DNA from: Kitasatospora sp. NBC_00315
GTDB lineage: Bacteria; Actinomycetota; Actinomycetes; Streptomycetales; Streptomycetaceae
NCBI RefSeq assembly: GCF_041435095.1
Contig: NZ_CP108025.1
Coordinates: 6,324,001-6,388,000, forward strand
Direction of reading: 5' to 3'
DNA length: 64,000 nt
Of the stretch, positions 3,407 through 41,864 are shown piece by piece. Under the pieces are notes generated by a model. That model did no database searches. It saw nothing but the letters and a program-made list of their open reading frames with translations, and was not told the DNA's origin. The translations under genes and the position numbers were made by a program. Positions within the stretch are counted from its first letter, which is position 1. Each line of letters starts with the position of its first letter.

Positions 3407-4531
3407 TTGTATCTCTCCACCTCCGCTGCCCATCCGCTGTCCGGCTACGGCTGGGACGACGACTGGGCCGCTGATTTCTCCTTCCACGCCGCGGTCGGGC
3501 TGCTGCCCGGCCGGGTGGTCCGGGTCGACCGCGGCCTGTGCAGCGTCGCCGTCGCCGACGGCGGCGCCGTGCGCGTCCTGCGGGCCGAGATGTCCGACGT
3601 CTCCACCCCCGATCCGATGCGCTACGTCTGCACCGGCGACTGGGTCGCGGTCGACGAGGTGCCCGGCGGCCGAGCGGCCGTACGGGTCCTGATGCCGCGT
3701 CGCACCGCACTGGTGCGCTCGACCAACACCAAGCGCTCCGAGGCGCAGGTCCTGGCGACCAACGTCGACCGGATCGCGATCTGCGTCTCGCTCGCGGCCG
3801 AGGTCGACCTCGGCCGGATCGAGCGCTTCCTCGCCCTGGCCGCCGCCAGCGGCACCGGCGAGGCGCTGCTCGGCGGTCCGCCCCGGCCCGGCGCCGAGCC
3901 GCTGATCGTGCTCACCAAGGCCGACCTGGCCTCCGACGCCGAGCACATCCGGGCCGATGTCGAGGGTGTCGCCCCCGGCGTGACGGTCCTGGTGGTCAGC
4001 GCCGGGACCGGCGAGGGCCTGGACGTGCTGCGGGCCTGCACACCGGGCAGCACCGCGCTGATCGGCCAGTCGGGTGCGGGAAAGTCCACCCTGACCAACG
4101 CGCTGGCCGGGGCCGAGGTGATGACGGTCCAGCAGACCCGGTCGGTCGACGAGAAGGGCCGGCACACCACGACCGCACGCGAGATGGTCCCGCTGCCGGG
4201 CGGCGGCGTCCTGATCGACACGCCCGGCCTGCGGGAGGTCGGCCTCTTCGGCGGGGACGGCCTGGCCCAGGCCTTCTCCGAGGTCGAGGAGCTCGCCGAG
4301 CGCTGCCGGTTCCACGACTGCGGCCACCACACCGAGCCCGGCTGCGCCGTGCGGTCGGCGCTGGCCGACGGCGAACTCTCCGAGCGTCGCTGGGAGAGCT
4401 ACGTCAAGCTGCAGCGCGAGAACGAGTGGGTCGCCTCGCGGACGGACGCCCGGCTCGCTGCCGAGCGGCTGAAGAAGTGGAAGGCGATCACCAAGTCGGT
4501 GCGGGCGGCGGGCGGCACCGTCAAGCGCTGA
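3407..4531 (+). CDS. rsgA: Ribosome small-subunit-dependent GTPase RsgA
   Basis: Circularly permuted GTPase that helps late maturation of the 30S subunit. With the start used here it is 374 residues. It has an OB-fold N-domain (about 35-100), the permuted GTPase with the G4-like LTKAD (~169-173) before the P-loop GQSGAGKS (~220-227) and DTPG (G3), and a C-terminal zinc knuckle with the CRFHDCGHHTEPGC pattern. The frame opens at TTG 3389, but TTG 3407 is preferred: AAGGG lies eight bases upstream, and the product then begins close to the conserved HPLxxYGWDD segment. A strong hairpin follows its stop. Confidence 0.9.
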   Translation: MYLSTSAAHPLSGYGWDDDWAADFSFHAAVGLLPGRVVRVDRGLCSVAVADGGAVRVLRAEMSDVSTPDPMRYVCTGDWVAVDEVPGGRAAVRVLMPRRTALVRSTNTKRSEAQVLATNVDRIAICVSLAAEVDLGRIERFLALAAASGTGEALLGGPPRPGAEPLIVLTKADLASDAEHIRADVEGVAPGVTVLVVSAGTGEGLDVLRACTPGSTALIGQSGAGKSTLTNALAGAEVMTVQQTRSVDEKGRHTTTAREMVPLPGGGVLIDTPGLREVGLFGGDGLAQAFSEVEELAERCRFHDCGHHTEPGCAVRSALADGELSERRWESYVKLQRENEWVASRTDARLAAERLKKWKAITKSVRAAGGTVKR

Positions 4532-4552
4532 CGTCCCGCCGTCCGCGACCTG

Positions 4553-4596
4553 CCGTACGGCCGCCCGGGGCCCTGACGCCCCGGGCGGCCGTACGG
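4553..4596. terminator. Bidirectional hairpin terminator between rsgA and GH1 gene
   Basis: A perfect 19-bp inverted repeat (arms 4553-4571 and 4578-4596, beginning CCGTACGGCC) with a six-base loop lies between the convergent stops at 4531 and 4610. It has no U-tract, as is usual for streptomycete terminators. Confidence 0.8.
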
Positions 4597-4609
4597 GCCG
4601 GTGGGTCGG

Positions 4610-6127
<1,518 letters not shown>

Positions 6128-7039: not shown

Positions 7040-7989
7040 CGGTCCGTACGGTTGCGCCGGGCGGCGATCGCCGCGTTGGCCAGGGCCAGCAGCACGATCA
7101 GCAGGAACATCACCCAGGCGACCGCGGCCGCCCGGCCGAGGTGGAAGAAGCTCCAGCCCTGCTCGTACATGTAGAGGCCCAGGGTCTGGTACTGGTGCGA
7201 GACGCCGCCGCCCGCGTTGCCCTCGTAGAGCAGCGGTTCGCCGAACAGCTGGGTCGCGCCGATGGTGGAGACCACCACCGTGAAGATGATCGTCGGGCGC
7301 AGGCCGGGCACGGTCACGTGCAGGAACTGCTTCCAGCGCGAGGCGCCGTCCATCGCGGCGGACTCGTACAGCTCGGTCGGGACGGCCTGCATGCCGGCCA
7401 GGTAGATCAGGGCGTTGTAGCCCGTCCAGCGCCAGGTGACGATGGTCGAGACGCCGATCTGCGAGGCCCAGCTGTTCGCCTGCCAGTCCACCGGGTCGAG
7501 TCCGACGCTGCTCAGGGCCCAGTTGAGCAGCCCGTAGTCGCGGCCGAAGAGCTGCGCGAAGACGAGCGTGGCCGCGGCCACCGAGGTCGCGTACGGCATC
7601 AGCATCGCGACCCGGAAGAAGGTGCGGCCGCGGAGGCGGTAGTTCAGCAGGTGGGCCAGTCCGAGCGCCATGATCAGCTGCGGGACGGTGGAGAGCACCC
7701 CGATGGTGAAGGTGTTGCGCAGCGCGTTCCAGAAGAACGGGTCCTCGAACAGGCGGGTGTAGTTCTGGAACCCGACCCAGTCCATCCGGTCGGAGGTCTG
7801 CAGTTCGACCCGGTGCAGCGAGACGTACGCGGTGTACAGCAGCGGGAAGAGGCCGAAGGCCGCGAACAGGACGAAGAACGGCGCCAGGTAGCCGTAGGGC
7901 GCGGCGCGGGTGCCCCGCCGGGCGCGGGGCCGGCCCCCGGGGACGGCCGCCGCGGGGCGGGGGCTTCGGTCGGTGGTACTGATGGCCAT
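7036..7989 (-). CDS. Carbohydrate ABC transporter permease (CebF-like)
   Basis: MalF/CebF-type membrane permease of 317 residues. A basic Arg/Pro-rich N-terminus is followed by about six spans. The EAA-type loop (PTELYESAAMDGASRWKQF) lies around residues 205-225. GAAGGA precedes the ATG. It is the middle gene of the binding protein-permease-permease-glucosidase operon, 60 bp after the binding-protein stop. Confidence 0.9.
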   Translation of the reverse strand: MAISTTDRSPRPAAAVPGGRPRARRGTRAAPYGYLAPFFVLFAAFGLFPLLYTAYVSLHRVELQTSDRMDWVGFQNYTRLFEDPFFWNALRNTFTIGVLSTVPQLIMALGLAHLLNYRLRGRTFFRVAMLMPYATSVAAATLVFAQLFGRDYGLLNWALSSVGLDPVDWQANSWASQIGVSTIVTWRWTGYNALIYLAGMQAVPTELYESAAMDGASRWKQFLHVTVPGLRPTIIFTVVVSTIGATQLFGEPLLYEGNAGGGVSHQYQTLGLYMYEQGWSFFHLGRAAAVAWVMFLLIVLLALANAAIAARRNRTDR

Positions 7990-8049
7990 GGTGGTCCTTC
8001 GGTGGGCCGGGTGGTCCGGGCCGGCGGGGCCCGGACCACCGGTGGTCTG

Positions 8050-9357
8050 TCAGTTCCCGCTGGCCTTCTTGACGTTGTCCAGCGCGTGCTGCCAGGCGGC
8101 GTCCGGCGCGGTGCCGGTGCGCTCCACCTCGCCGAGGGCGTCGGTGAACGCCTTGCCGACCACGCCGTCCTCGGTGCCGAGCACCTGGGCGGGCATGTTG
8201 GCGGCCGACTCGCTGAAGATCTGGCCGATCGGCGCGTTGTTGAAGTACGGGTCCTGGATCGACTTGATGTCGGCCTGGGCGTCGGTGCTGGAGGGGAAGG
8301 ACCCCTGCTTGGTGAACACCTTGACCTGCTGCTCCCGGGCGGTCAGCCAGGTGATCAGCTCGGCGGCCGCCTTCTGGTGCTTGGAGGTCTTCGGGATCGC
8401 CAGGTAGGAGCCGCCCCAGTTACCGGTCTTGCCGGGGCCGGCCGCGATGTCCCACTTGCCGGCGAAGGCGTCGCCGGCCTGGCCCTTGATGTAGCCGATC
8501 ATCCAGGCGGGGCAGCTCAGGGTGGCGAACTTGCCCGTGGTGAAGGCCTTGTTCCACTCGGGCGTCCACTGCGGGAGCTTGGCGGAGAGGCCGTCGGCGA
8601 CGAGCTTGGTGGAGTCCGCCCAGGCGCTCTTCACGGCCGCGCTGCTGTCGTAGACCGGCTTGTCCGACTCGTCCGCGTAGCGGACCTTCTGCTGGCCCAC
8701 CTCGGCGGTGAACATGCCCGCCGCGCTGTCCGTCCAGGCGTTGCCCGCCTCGGCCTTGCCGACGTACTCCTTGCCGAGTTCGAGGTAGCCCGCCCAGGTG
8801 GACCACTTCGCGGCCAGCTCGGTGCGGTCGGTGGGCAGGCCGGCCGCCTTGAACAGGTCGGTGCGGTAGCAGATCGCCTCCGGGCCGATGTCGGTACCGG
8901 CGCCGAGGACCTTGCCGTCGGCGGTCTTGACGGCGGCGGCCTTCCACGGCACCAGGCCGTCGTTGACGGTGCCGGCGCCCACCGTCTTGAGGTCGACGAA
9001 CTTGTCGGCCTGCTTCTGCAGCACGCTGGCGACCCGGCCGACCTCCAGGCCCTGGATGTCGGCGAGCCCGCCGCCGCCGGCCAGTTTGGTCTGCAGCGCC
9101 TGCCAGTACTGGCCCTCGTCCTGGGTGTCGCTCTGCTTGATGGTGACGTTCGGGTGCAGCTTCATGTACTCGTCGTAGAGGCCGGTCTCCTTGAACCCGA
9201 AGGTGCCGAAGAGGTCCACGGTGAGCGTGACCTTGCTGTCGGCGGCGTCCGTGGACCCGCCCGCGGAGCCCGAGCTGCAGGCGGTGAGGAGGAGCATGGC
9301 GGCGAGGGCAGCGGTGCCGAGGGAGGCGGCGGTGCGGCGGGCTCTGAAGGTGGGCAT
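8050..9357 (-). CDS. Sugar ABC transporter substrate-binding lipoprotein (CebE-like)
   Basis: Extracytoplasmic solute-binding protein of 435 residues that would deliver a beta-glucan oligosaccharide to the permeases. The N-terminus has basic residues, a hydrophobic segment and the lipobox LLTACSS (~26-32), so it is predicted to be lipid-anchored. The frame is open to 9459, but ATG 9357 is chosen: AGGAGGC sits six bases upstream and the signal peptide then begins correctly. First gene of the operon. Two LacI-type palindromes lie 64-105 bp upstream. Substrate is inferred from the neighbouring GH1 and GH81 enzymes; cellobiose (as for CebE) is the main alternative. Confidence 0.88.
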   Translation of the reverse strand: MPTFRARRTAASLGTAALAAMLLLTACSSGSAGGSTDAADSKVTLTVDLFGTFGFKETGLYDEYMKLHPNVTIKQSDTQDEGQYWQALQTKLAGGGGLADIQGLEVGRVASVLQKQADKFVDLKTVGAGTVNDGLVPWKAAAVKTADGKVLGAGTDIGPEAICYRTDLFKAAGLPTDRTELAAKWSTWAGYLELGKEYVGKAEAGNAWTDSAAGMFTAEVGQQKVRYADESDKPVYDSSAAVKSAWADSTKLVADGLSAKLPQWTPEWNKAFTTGKFATLSCPAWMIGYIKGQAGDAFAGKWDIAAGPGKTGNWGGSYLAIPKTSKHQKAAAELITWLTAREQQVKVFTKQGSFPSSTDAQADIKSIQDPYFNNAPIGQIFSESAANMPAQVLGTEDGVVGKAFTDALGEVERTGTAPDAAWQHALDNVKKASGN

Positions 9358-38741: not shown

Positions 38742-39120
38742 GGCGGGCACCGTCCGTTTCGGTTCGGCATTGCGGTGCCCCCGGGCGGGCCCGGGGGACG
38801 GACGACTCCATGCTCCCCGATCGGCACCGGGCGCGGCGCTGATTGCGGCAATCATCAGGGAGAGATCAGGGGTGTACGCGCGATCGCGTACGCGGGGCGG
38901 AGGAGGCCCGGCGATCCGGCTCGTCCCCCTGGGGGAGCGCCGGGGAGCGGCAGGAGGGGGCGCAAGGGGCGCACGGGGGCGCACATGGAGTGTGCCGCGC
39001 CTGCCACCCCGGCCGCGCGCCCCGGTGAAGCCGTGCGGTTTCCTGTTATCCCCCCGGCCGACCAGGGTCTCCGAGGTGCTGGGTGTCGGGTGCCGGGTTT
39101 CGGAGCAGTGAGGACAGCGG
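38742..39120. other. Intergenic region, 379 bp
   Basis: Divergent spacer between the Mrr-like gene and the sigma-CAP fusion gene. GAGGA at 39108-39112 is the ribosome-binding site of the latter. The stretch GGTTTCCTGTTATCC near 39037-39052 is the most promoter-like, but I cannot assign an ECF-type motif. Confidence 0.4.
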
Positions 39121-40818
39121 ATGCGGGTGGGCAGGGGATTCGGTGCGGCGGCTGCGGCGGTCGACGGCGGGGCGGTCGGTACGGAGGCGACCGGTGGCGC
39201 GGTGACCGGTGACACGGTGACGGGCGGCGCGCCGACCGATGCGGACGCGACCGGTCCGGCGGTGGTCGCCGCCGCGCAGGCCGGGGACGAGGCGGCCCGG
39301 GAGCGCCTGGCCGCCGCGTACCTGCCGCTGGTCTACAACGTGGTCGGCCGGGCGATGGACGGTCACCCCGACGTGGACGACGTGGTCCAGGAGACCATGC
39401 TCCGGGTGTGCGGCCGGCTCGACGGGCTCCGCGACCCGTCCTCGTTCCGCTCCTGGCTGGTCGCCGTCGCCATGAACGAGGTCCGCCGGCGCTGGGCGGC
39501 CCGGCAGCAGGCGGCGGTCCCCGGCCTGGACGGCGCCGAACGGACTCCGGACCCGGCGGCGGACTTCGTGGACCTGACCATCCTGCGGCTCGGGCTCTCC
39601 GGGCAGCGCCGCGAGGTCGCCGAGGCGACCCGCTGGCTGGACGACCGGGACCGCGACCTGCTCTCGCTCTGGTGGCTGGAGACCGCCGGCGAGCTGACCC
39701 GCGCCGATCTGGCCTCGGCCCTCGACCTCTCGCCGCAGCACACCGCCGTACGGGTGCAGCGGATGCGGGAGCAGCTGGAGAGCGCCCGGGTGGTGGTCCG
39801 CGCGCTCGCCGCCGTGCCGCGCTGCGCCGAACTGGCCGACCTCGCCGCGCCCTGGGACGGCCGCCCGGCGGCACTGTGGCGCAAGCGGATCGCCCGTCAC
39901 GCCCGAGGCTGCCCGGCCTGCTCGGGTCACCGGCGCGGCCTGATGCCGGCCGAGGGACTGCTGGCGGGCCTCGGCCTGCTGCCCGCCCCGCAGCACCTCG
40001 GCGGCGCCCACCTCGCGGCGCTGCCCGCCGCCTGGCAGGTCCCGGCCCCCGGCGGCGCCGGGACGAACGGTGCGGGTACGGGTGCGGGTACGGGCGGCGG
40101 AGCGGGTGCCCGGGGCCCGGCCCCGACCGGTGGCGCGTCATCAGGCCCGACCGGGCCGCGCACCCGGCGGGGACGGACCGGTGGACGGCGTACGGGGCGC
40201 CTGGTCGCGCTGGCGGCCGGGGTGCTGGCCCTCTCGGCGGCGGTGCCGGCGGTGCTGCACGCGGGCCCGGACGCCCCGCCGGCCGCACCCCCGCCCGCCC
40301 CGGCGTCCCCGCCCACGGCCACCCCGACGGCCCCGGTGGCCGCCTCACCCCTCCCGTCGCCCCCGCCGGCGCCGCCGACCGTCGCACCGGTGCCGCCCAC
40401 CGCCACGGCCGCCGTCAGCACGACCGCGGCCCCGAGGAGCACGGAGCAGCAGGTGACCGACCTGATCAACACCGCCCGGGCGGGCCACGGCTGCGGGGCG
40501 CTGCGGATCGATCCCCGGCTGCACGTCGCGGCCCAGAAGCACTCCGAGGACATGGCGGCGCGTCACTACTACGACCACGTGACCCCCGAGGGGACCCACG
40601 CCGACAGCCGGATCACCGCGGCGGGCTACCGCTGGAGCCTGTGGGGCGAGAACCTGGACCGCGGCCGGAAGGGCCCCGCCCAGCTGGTGGACGCCTGGAC
40701 GGACGGGGCGATCCACCAGGAGAACATGCTGGACTGCCGGTTCACCGGCGTGGGCCTGGGCTCGGCGGCCGGGCCCGACGGCACCCTGTGGACGCTCGAC
40801 CTCGCGGCGCCGCGCTGA
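39121..40818 (+). CDS. ECF sigma factor fused to zinc finger, membrane span and CAP domain
   Basis: A 565-residue multidomain protein. Residues ~45-125 are sigma region 2 (AAYLPLVYNVVGRAMDGHPDVDDVVQETM) and ~165-225 region 4 (DLASALDLSPQHTAVRVQRMREQL). Next is an anti-sigma-type zinc finger: His260, Cys264 and Cys267 (HARGCPAC), with Cys235 as a possible fourth ligand. A Gly/Ala linker leads to one membrane span (361-380), a Pro/Thr/Ala-rich extracytoplasmic stalk (~382-438) and a CAP/SCP domain (~440-565; DMAARHYYDHVTPEG, GYRWSLWGENL). Sigma factor, anti-sigma motif and possible sensor thus share one chain. Activation might need release or rearrangement. ATG 39121 has GAGGA upstream. Confidence 0.88.
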   Translation: MRVGRGFGAAAAAVDGGAVGTEATGGAVTGDTVTGGAPTDADATGPAVVAAAQAGDEAARERLAAAYLPLVYNVVGRAMDGHPDVDDVVQETMLRVCGRLDGLRDPSSFRSWLVAVAMNEVRRRWAARQQAAVPGLDGAERTPDPAADFVDLTILRLGLSGQRREVAEATRWLDDRDRDLLSLWWLETAGELTRADLASALDLSPQHTAVRVQRMREQLESARVVVRALAAVPRCAELADLAAPWDGRPAALWRKRIARHARGCPACSGHRRGLMPAEGLLAGLGLLPAPQHLGGAHLAALPAAWQVPAPGGAGTNGAGTGAGTGGGAGARGPAPTGGASSGPTGPRTRRGRTGGRRTGRLVALAAGVLALSAAVPAVLHAGPDAPPAAPPPAPASPPTATPTAPVAASPLPSPPPAPPTVAPVPPTATAAVSTTAAPRSTEQQVTDLINTARAGHGCGALRIDPRLHVAAQKHSEDMAARHYYDHVTPEGTHADSRITAAGYRWSLWGENLDRGRKGPAQLVDAWTDGAIHQENMLDCRFTGVGLGSAAGPDGTLWTLDLAAPR

Positions 40819-40913: not shown

Positions 40914-41768
40914 TCAGCCCGCGGTGGCGAACACCTGCGTCCACCACGGTCCGCCGGCGCCGAGCGTGACGCCGACACCGATCTCCCGGAAGTCGCAGTC
41001 GAGGATGTTGGCGCGATGGCCCGGACTGTTCATCCAGGCCGTCATCACCGCCGCCGGGTCCTGCTGGCCCTGGGCGATGTTCTCGCCCCAGCGGCTCCAG
41101 CGGTAGCCCGCCGCGGTGATCCGGCTGTCGGCGTGGTGCCCCTCCGGGTCGGCGTGGTCGAAGTAGTGACGCGCCGCCATGTCGTCGGAGTGCGCCTGCG
41201 CGGCCGACTGCAGGGCCGGGTTCACCGTCAGTGGCGCGCAGCCCTGCTTGGCCCGCTCCTCGTTGACCAGCTCGGCGACCCGGCCGACGAACCGGCCCGC
41301 CGCGGTGGCGCCGGCCGGCGTGTCCGAGCCGGCGGCGGGCACGGCGTGGGGGGCCGCGGCCGGACTCCTCGGCGGGGTCGTGGCGGTGGGCGCGGTCGTG
41401 GCGGGGGTCGCGCGGGCGGCGGCGGTGGCCGTCGCCGCTCCGTCCGGGGCGGCCGTGCCGCGGCCATCTCCCGGGACGGCGGCCGGTGAGGCCGTGGTCG
41501 TGGCCGCGGGCGGCTGCGCCGGCTGCCCGGACGGCGCGGGGAGGGCGGCGTCGGGAACGGGCCGGTCGGGGAGGGTGAGCGCGGCGGGCCGGGCGTCGTC
41601 GGCGCCGGGCGCTCCGGCCGTCAGGAACCAGCCGCCGGTGGTACCGAGGGCCACCGACCCCGCGATCACCCCCAGCACACGGCGGGCCGCCCGCGGCTTC
41701 CTCCGGTGACCGCGCCTGCGGTGCCGGGCCGCGGGGGCGTGACCGCTCTCGGGATGCTGGGGGTTCAT
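40914..41768 (-). CDS. Membrane-anchored CAP (SCP) domain protein
   Basis: A 284-residue protein with a very basic cytoplasmic N-terminus, one membrane span or signal anchor (~31-50), an Ala/Pro/Thr-rich stalk (~55-155) and a CAP domain (~157-284). The domain has the canonical elements LVNEERAKQGCAPL, HSDDMAARHYFDH, GYRWSRWGENIA and AWMNSPGHRANILDCDFREIG. Bacterial CAP proteins are extracellular with largely unknown roles. It shares long identical stretches (DMAARHY, ADSRITAAGYRWS) with the CAP domain of the convergent sigma fusion, so the two are paralogous. GAGGACG precedes ATG 41768. Confidence 0.9.
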   Translation of the reverse strand: MNPQHPESGHAPAARHRRRGHRRKPRAARRVLGVIAGSVALGTTGGWFLTAGAPGADDARPAALTLPDRPVPDAALPAPSGQPAQPPAATTTASPAAVPGDGRGTAAPDGAATATAAARATPATTAPTATTPPRSPAAAPHAVPAAGSDTPAGATAAGRFVGRVAELVNEERAKQGCAPLTVNPALQSAAQAHSDDMAARHYFDHADPEGHHADSRITAAGYRWSRWGENIAQGQQDPAAVMTAWMNSPGHRANILDCDFREIGVGVTLGAGGPWWTQVFATAG

Positions 41769-41843
41769 ACGGGTACGTCCTCTGCCGTCAGGTGTCGTGC
41801 CTACACCTGGGAGACCGCCGAGCGGGCACCCCGACAACAGAAA

Positions 41844-41864
41844 ACCGATCACCGATCACCGATC
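41844..41864. repeat. Heptad tandem repeat ACCGATC x3
   Basis: Three exact 7-bp units upstream of the CAP gene, related in sequence to the GACCACC heptads at 24405-24439. Confidence 0.8.

Follow-up and report, generated by a model that had tools for sequence, protein, structure and literature searches.

A one-piece sigma factor with an outer CAP domain in Kitasatospora, its relatives, and a promoter signature shared with a neighbouring CAP gene

Sigma factors fused to a membrane anti-sigma-like part are already known from ECF52, ECF53, and IutY. In the ECF52 protein SCO4117 of Streptomyces coelicolor, a sigma domain, a zinc finger, a membrane span, a Pro-rich stalk, and an outer carbohydrate-binding module form one protein, which has been suggested to activate its own gene and to be freed by an as yet unidentified protease (PMC5826349). 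According to two further sources, the actinobacterial group ECF53 (and ECF48) carries a C-terminal anti-sigma-like extension with a zinc finger and a span, and glycosyl hydrolase or carbohydrate-binding outer domains are predicted for some ECF52 and ECF53 proteins (PMC8999054, PMC10766802). The first of these also describes IutY of Pseudomonas putida (ECF243), in which sigma factor and membrane anti-sigma factor form a single polypeptide that is freed by regulated proteolysis (PMC8999054). In the SigI/RsgI systems of Clostridium thermocellum, the sigma factor is autoregulated and the GH10 outer sensor of RsgI6 resembles the induced product Xyn10D (PMC4711584). In the open-access literature searched, outside which the original ECF classifications lie, no description was found of a sigma factor whose outer part is a CAP domain.

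The gene studied here lies in a 64,000-nucleotide stretch of the Kitasatospora sp. NBC_00315 genome, hereafter the window, and its features are listed in table 1. The original prediction had placed a sigma factor, a zinc-binding anti-sigma segment, a single span, a Pro-rich stalk, and a CAP domain in one polypeptide; this order of parts is confirmed within one intact frame. Both sigma regions 2 and 4 had been predicted. Region 2 is recognized by Sigma70_r2 (E 1.2e-12, 47.9 bits vs. a cut-off of 24). For region 4, no Pfam region-4 model matches at E ≤ 1, and a winged-helix model falls below its cut-off at residues 174–217; this candidate region rests on the NCBIfam sigma70-ECF match (67.3 bits vs. 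a cut-off of 42.9) and on predicted helices. The extension following the sigma domain is about 340 residues long and includes the zinc-ligand pattern and the span. The span has a mean hydropathy of 2.40, with seven positive charges in the preceding 25 residues and none in the following 25, and it is present in all 115 CAP-type relatives described below. The stalk is visible in the sequence itself. The CAP domain is matched with E 3.9e-19 (70.1 bits vs. a cut-off of 21.1) and has 4ifa and 4d53 as solved relatives by sequence and fold; the sigma and CAP parts each match solved structures, of ECF sigma factors and CAP proteins, respectively. Residues H486, E510, and H532, which correspond to the histidines and glutamate of the CAP cavity motif, are kept in 113, 114, and 105 of the 115 CAP-type members. 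In 113 of them the CAP domain contains exactly two cysteines, which fits an exported, disulphide-bonded domain. An AlphaFold2 model built with 63 sequences is confident for residues 40–282 (sigma domain and zinc segment) and 441–565 (CAP domain); the middle is of low confidence, the span does not appear as a helix, and the pTM is only 0.42. On its other flank, the fusion has zinc-ribbon-like and TPR-like genes, none of which reaches a Pfam cut-off.

Table 1. Features of the sigma-CAP locus (positions in the window)
Feature	Position	Strand	Evidence and remarks
Promoter signature TTTCCTGTTATC-N15-GGTCTCC	39039..39072	+	48 nt upstream of the fusion start codon; PWM score 33.3; whole-genome pattern match
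Sigma-CAP fusion gene	39121..40818	+	One open frame, 565 aa; relatives with identical order of parts
ECF sigma domain, residues 59-221 (region 2 at 64-129)	39295..39783	+	TIGR02937, PF04542
Zinc-ligand segment C235-x24-H260-x3-C264-x2-C267	39823..39921	+	Ligand conservation; every Pfam model below cut-off
Membrane span, residues 361-382	40201..40266	+	Hydropathy, charge asymmetry; no helix in the AlphaFold2 model
Pro-rich stalk, residues 383-440	40267..40440	+	Sequence
CAP domain, residues 447-559	40459..40797	+	PF00188; H486, E510, H532, C458, and C539 widely kept
Standalone CAP protein gene, convergent to the fusion, probable target	40914..41768	-	PF00188, E 4.1e-26; signature in front
Promoter signature TTTTCTGTTGTC-N16-GGTCTCC	41810..41844	-	41 nt upstream of the probable start of the standalone CAP gene; PWM score 28.6

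The zinc segment contains the motif HARGCPAC at residues 260–267, in which an H-x3-C-x2-C core had been seen. This core holds and is joined by an upstream cysteine: the four ligands C235, H260, C264, and C267 do not vary in any of the 91 aligned relatives, and the C-x24-H-x3-C-x2-C pattern is found in 165 of 166 distinct family members. Its assignment to zinc-binding anti-sigma domains did not extend to a profile match. Neither zf-HC2 (PF13490) nor any other Pfam model rises above its cut-off in the segments of the fusion and four relatives, and a PDB search with the segment returned no anti-sigma relative. Aligned by hhalign with the ECF52-like protein of the same genome (L096), it gave a probability of 5.6% over 17 columns. 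As the ligands are invariant yet recognized by no profile, a putative inhibitory role of this segment is the weakest step of the mechanism proposed below.

Like SCO4117, the fusion joins in one protein a sigma domain, zinc ligands, a span, a Pro-rich stalk, and an outer binding domain; it differs in that this outer domain is CAP and not a carbohydrate-binding module, and in that the ECF52 promoter motif is CSGYN-17-SRHA (PMC5826349). ECF52 and ECF53 had been named as examples of ECF groups with fused membrane-spanning extensions. The window's own genome encodes an ECF52-like one-piece sigma factor with zf-HC2, a Pro-rich part, and an NPCBM domain (L096:19-1836), and a BLASTP comparison of the fusion with it gave nothing better than E 5.2. 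Together with the CAP outer domain and a zinc segment that does not reach zf-HC2, this rules out membership of ECF52, even though span and stalk are present. Two fused sigma lineages without detectable likeness hence coexist in Kitasatospora sp. NBC_00315. The fusion fits the description of ECF53, whose extension holds a zinc pattern and one or two spans in up to 400 residues, and glycosidase-type outer domains also occur among its relatives; a CAP outer domain is not named for ECF53 or ECF48 in the accessible parts of the sources (PMC8999054, PMC10766802). Compared by description of architecture, membership of ECF53 is possible. With IutY the fusion shares the union of sigma and membrane anti-sigma parts in one polypeptide, release by proteolysis being demonstrated for IutY; IutY belongs to iron-siderophore surface signalling and to another sigma group and has no CAP domain. 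The proposed resemblance to SigI/RsgI is of another kind, namely an outer sensor domain that resembles the product and a sigma factor that is autoregulated. SigI and RsgI are two proteins of which the sigma factor belongs to another family and the sensors are carbohydrate sensors, with no CAP, whereas the fusion is one polypeptide and has no separate RsgI-type membrane anti-sigma factor; the two would work alike at most by analogy.

Kitasatospora sp. NBC_00315 encodes two paralogues of the fusion: L001, likewise a sigma-CAP protein (52% identity), and L021, whose outer part is a beta-helix. The sigma/zinc/membrane module was matched in 16 of 16 genomes of a genus sample (best E of each ≤ 3.2e-92) and in 46 of the 61 genomes of a family sample (E 1e-25). 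A class-wide sample gave matches in 10 of 98 genomes (E 1e-20), six within Streptomycetaceae, two strong matches outside it (G130 and G091), and two weak ones; by eye, the outer part of the strong ones is glycosidase-like (L211) or a leucine-rich-like frame following a sequence gap (L212). A scan of named genomes yielded at least 402 relatives, the best 80 of which were kept. Once identical sigma modules were merged, 166 distinct modules remained, and their outer domains were typed with profiles built for this analysis and named after Pfam. CAP is carried by 115, a Glyco_hydro_cc type by 16, an unnamed type by 8, GH99 and a beta-helix by 5 each, and AbfB and a distant CAP by 2 each; 10 modules are cut by a contig end and 3 have no outer domain. 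Far from being unusual, as had been supposed, CAP is the commonest outer domain in this sample. Since the sample is centred on the fusion's kin, these counts are not natural frequencies.

Distant relatives share 67–76% identity in the sigma module but differ in the stalk. A quick tree of 165 modules (one shorter than 200 aa was omitted), with many open forks, places Kitasatospora mediocidica highest in identity to the fusion, with 74% over 254 columns. On this tree the outer-domain label changes nine times, cut and missing domains being uncounted, and only twice when CAP is set against all other types; a small CAP group (L078, L079, L082, and L084) is nested within a clade of other outer types. 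These few changes indicate that outer domains are mostly inherited and occasionally exchanged. A very divergent sigma-CAP copy on a long branch (L023:3100-4713) lies about 16 kb from the normal copy L003 of the same genome and is perhaps a decaying duplicate. In L026, L035, and L204, the frame is broken between span and outer domain within GC-rich, Pro-coding sequence, reflecting either sequencing errors or real decoupling; L026 and L035, two of the three modules without outer domain, are broken CAP frames. Two of the 166 (L090:1288-4197 and L091:1459-4260) combine sigma domain, zinc pattern, span, and beta-helix with a sortase-like end, in which LAHTG or LAQTG is followed by a hydrophobic segment and arginines. 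Judging from this signal, these sigma factors may be covalently attached to the cell wall.

The regions upstream of most family genes share TTTCYGTTATC-N15/16-GGTCTCC, an ECF-type promoter signature. This signature, conserved in the family and with a second site at the standalone CAP gene, is what is new here; neither it nor the adjacent CAP gene figured in the original prediction, and together they say most about function. A position weight matrix (PWM) was built from 48 of 91 upstream regions. Scanned with it, the window contains two strong sites (table 1), the next best scoring 11.2. Across the whole genome, GTTATCN{14,16}NKCTCC has three matches, two of which are the sigma-CAP promoters, and none in a reversed control. 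The third, at 5621306, was rejected: its spacer is shorter, no family or CAP gene follows among the listed frames, and no PWM site of 15 or more occurs in the 12 kb around it. GGAGAN{17,18}GAYAACRNAA has two genomic matches, the promoters of the paralogue and of the standalone CAP gene, and again none in the reversed control. A fixed-spacing search allowing up to three mismatches found 12 matches in the genome versus two in the control. Two are the sigma-CAP promoters, one with two mismatches lies at 6683855, and one with three is divergent to the beta-helix paralogue, upstream of its pectinesterase gene.

At PWM scores of 17 or more, the signature precedes 95 of the 115 CAP-type genes, 16 of 16 of the Glyco_hydro_cc type, 4 of 7 of the unnamed type, 3 of 5 of the GH99 type, and 2 of 5 of the beta-helix type; neither the two AbfB nor the two distant CAP genes have it. 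Among the 20 CAP-type genes missing their own site, L111, L132, and L134 have one before an upstream CAP gene instead. The figure of 60 of 71 CAP-type loci is no independent test of the matrix, some genomes being common to the training set (L168/L009). Within the family, a strict form of the pattern was found in 20 of 23 genomes with the module, which were hand-chosen, and in none of the 15 without it, which are all the module-free genomes of the sample; the reversed control gave 0 of 38, and three module-bearing genomes lack the pattern. Sixteen of these 20 genomes belong to the window's genus, so that the co-occurrence is confounded by kinship; outside the genus it is seen in 4 of 7 genomes with the module versus 0 of 15 without (p 0.005).

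The standalone CAP gene of the window has two candidate starts. The signature falls inside the mechanical frame 40914-41852, making a start at 41768 likelier than one at 41852. According to its sequence, its product is probably exported or membrane-anchored. The genome encodes four CAP domains; that of the fusion is closest to its neighbour's (53% vs. 45 and 42%), and the neighbour's, in turn, resembles the fourth domain of the genome (62%) more than that of the fusion. The fourth CAP gene has no signature site, and no standalone CAP gene lies within 6.5 kb of the paralogue L001. In 25 of 78 CAP-type loci with wide flanks, a standalone CAP gene lies no more than 6.5 kb away, and 19 of these 25 have a site. 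On plasmid records of Kitasatospora sp. NBC_00039 and Streptomyces angustmyceticus, a CAP gene adjoins the fusion and a site precedes each, both fusions being annotated merely as sigma-70 family. The scored bases of the NBC_00039 plasmid are identical to those of L101, of which this locus may be near kin.

Extra sites, other than those of the family genes themselves, number 38 in 1.45 Mb of loci versus none in reversed sequence. Beside CAP-type sigma factors (window included), 21 of 28 such sites stand before a CAP gene, and beside other types 0 of 11 (cut modules and those without outer domain omitted; Fisher p 1.9e-5, only a guide since the loci are related). Seven sites beside CAP-type sigma factors do not lead to CAP. 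That of L145 precedes a breaking frame, with a CAP frame nearby. In L140 and L141 (at 7799-8797 in the latter) the signature precedes a papain-like (C1) frame that lies downstream of a sigma-CAP gene. Four others are weaker or unexplained (L180, L183 twice, and L184). Pfam, run on ten signature-bearing neighbours, identified thaumatin beside Glyco_hydro_cc types (L060 and L080), ricin and pectinesterase beside beta-helix types (L021 and L092), alginate lyase (L087), papain (L141, the only one of the two papain-like loci searched), and CAP (L110), and nothing for those of L058, L048, and L184. With a profile built here, however, the L058 neighbour (4310-5167) proves to share the unnamed domain that its sigma factor carries as outer part (E 1.5e-44); it also has a sortase-like tail. 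No target gene was found for L020, L065, and L022. Strict sites in relatives number 46, and the 28 that were parsed lead to 10 family members, 9 CAP genes, and 9 others. By eye, the strict signature stands before a secreted-peptidase-like frame in L223, L229, and L244; a similar frame adjoins the paralogue L001 (703-3114), there without a site.

We consider it probable that the fusion unites a transmembrane sensor and a sigma factor in one piece and, through inhibition by the zinc segment and recognition of the signature, regulates its own gene and that of a matching exported CAP protein. Observed are the architecture and its conservation, the signature, the joint occurrence of signature and family, and the pairing of outer domain with neighbouring gene; that this sigma factor reads the signature, that the zinc segment inhibits it, the mode of release, and the nature of the CAP ligand are inferred. 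Outside the cell, the CAP domain on its Pro-rich stalk would meet a ligand, and the single span would carry the signal inward. Inside, the zinc segment would hold back the sigma domain in the manner of separate ZAS anti-sigma proteins, with proteolysis or a change of shape setting it free. The freed sigma factor would then recognize TTTCYGTTATC-N15/16-GGTCTCC, raise the expression of its own gene, and turn on the neighbouring exported-CAP gene. If it acts on both genes, sensor and product would therefore share a domain and presumably a ligand. The CAP domain as sensor, proposed from the start, is retained as the best guess.

The same machinery could answer to a mechanical or chemical cue: the CAP domain would serve as a wall anchor, and the sigma factor would be freed when tension arises, the anchor is lost, or the zinc cysteines are oxidized. 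The long stalk and the cysteine ligands suit this idea, and the sortase-like ends of L090 and L091 would anchor those proteins in the wall. A mere anchor would not need the CAP cavity residues, which are nonetheless kept almost throughout, and the type of outer domain tracks the type of target; we think such a cue unlikely. More doubtful still is that another ECF sigma factor or regulator reads the signature and the fusion is only one of its targets, the sigma part possibly acting elsewhere. Autoregulation by the fusion is deduced, and the AbfB and distant CAP genes have no site; yet none of the 15 module-free family genomes has the strict site, and one and the same site accompanies different outer-domain types on the same sigma module.

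We hold it very improbable that the CAP domain is itself the effector, acting for instance as an enzyme or binding protein of the envelope, with a vestigial or minor sigma part. The standalone CAP proteins of this genome appear from their sequence to be exported, and many CAP-type loci have no target nearby; the strong conservation of the sigma module against a variable stalk, and the retention of its own promoter site, point the other way. As for a frameshift or assembly error joining two genes, frames do break in this GC-rich family, L026 and L035 losing their CAP frame in this way, but the paralogue in the same genome and the 115 distinct relatives with intact CAP have already refuted this explanation, to which we give practically no weight.

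Beyond the sensor-sigma reading of the fusion itself, we tentatively extend the scheme to a form of mirror sensing across Streptomycetaceae and some other actinomycetes, a generalization that we consider possible but somewhat less likely than not. Each outer domain would be matched to the exported protein that its sigma factor switches on, with the pairs CAP and CAP, beta-1,3-glucanase-like domain and thaumatin, pectate-lyase-like helix and pectinesterase, and unnamed domain and same domain. The CAP member would read the ligand of bacterial CAP proteins, perhaps a fungal sterol or lipid or a constituent of the wall; covalent stapling to the cell wall is conceivable for some beta-helix relatives. 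To our knowledge, the ligand of bacterial CAP domains is an open question. Here a CAP domain appears to be wired to a strict promoter and a matching target gene, and candidate ligands could therefore be screened with a reporter. With their exchangeable outer domains, these proteins would be natural sensors made of a single polypeptide, some of them perhaps responding to polysaccharides of fungi or plants, and the family would offer a clean case for studying the restraint and release of a fused sigma factor.
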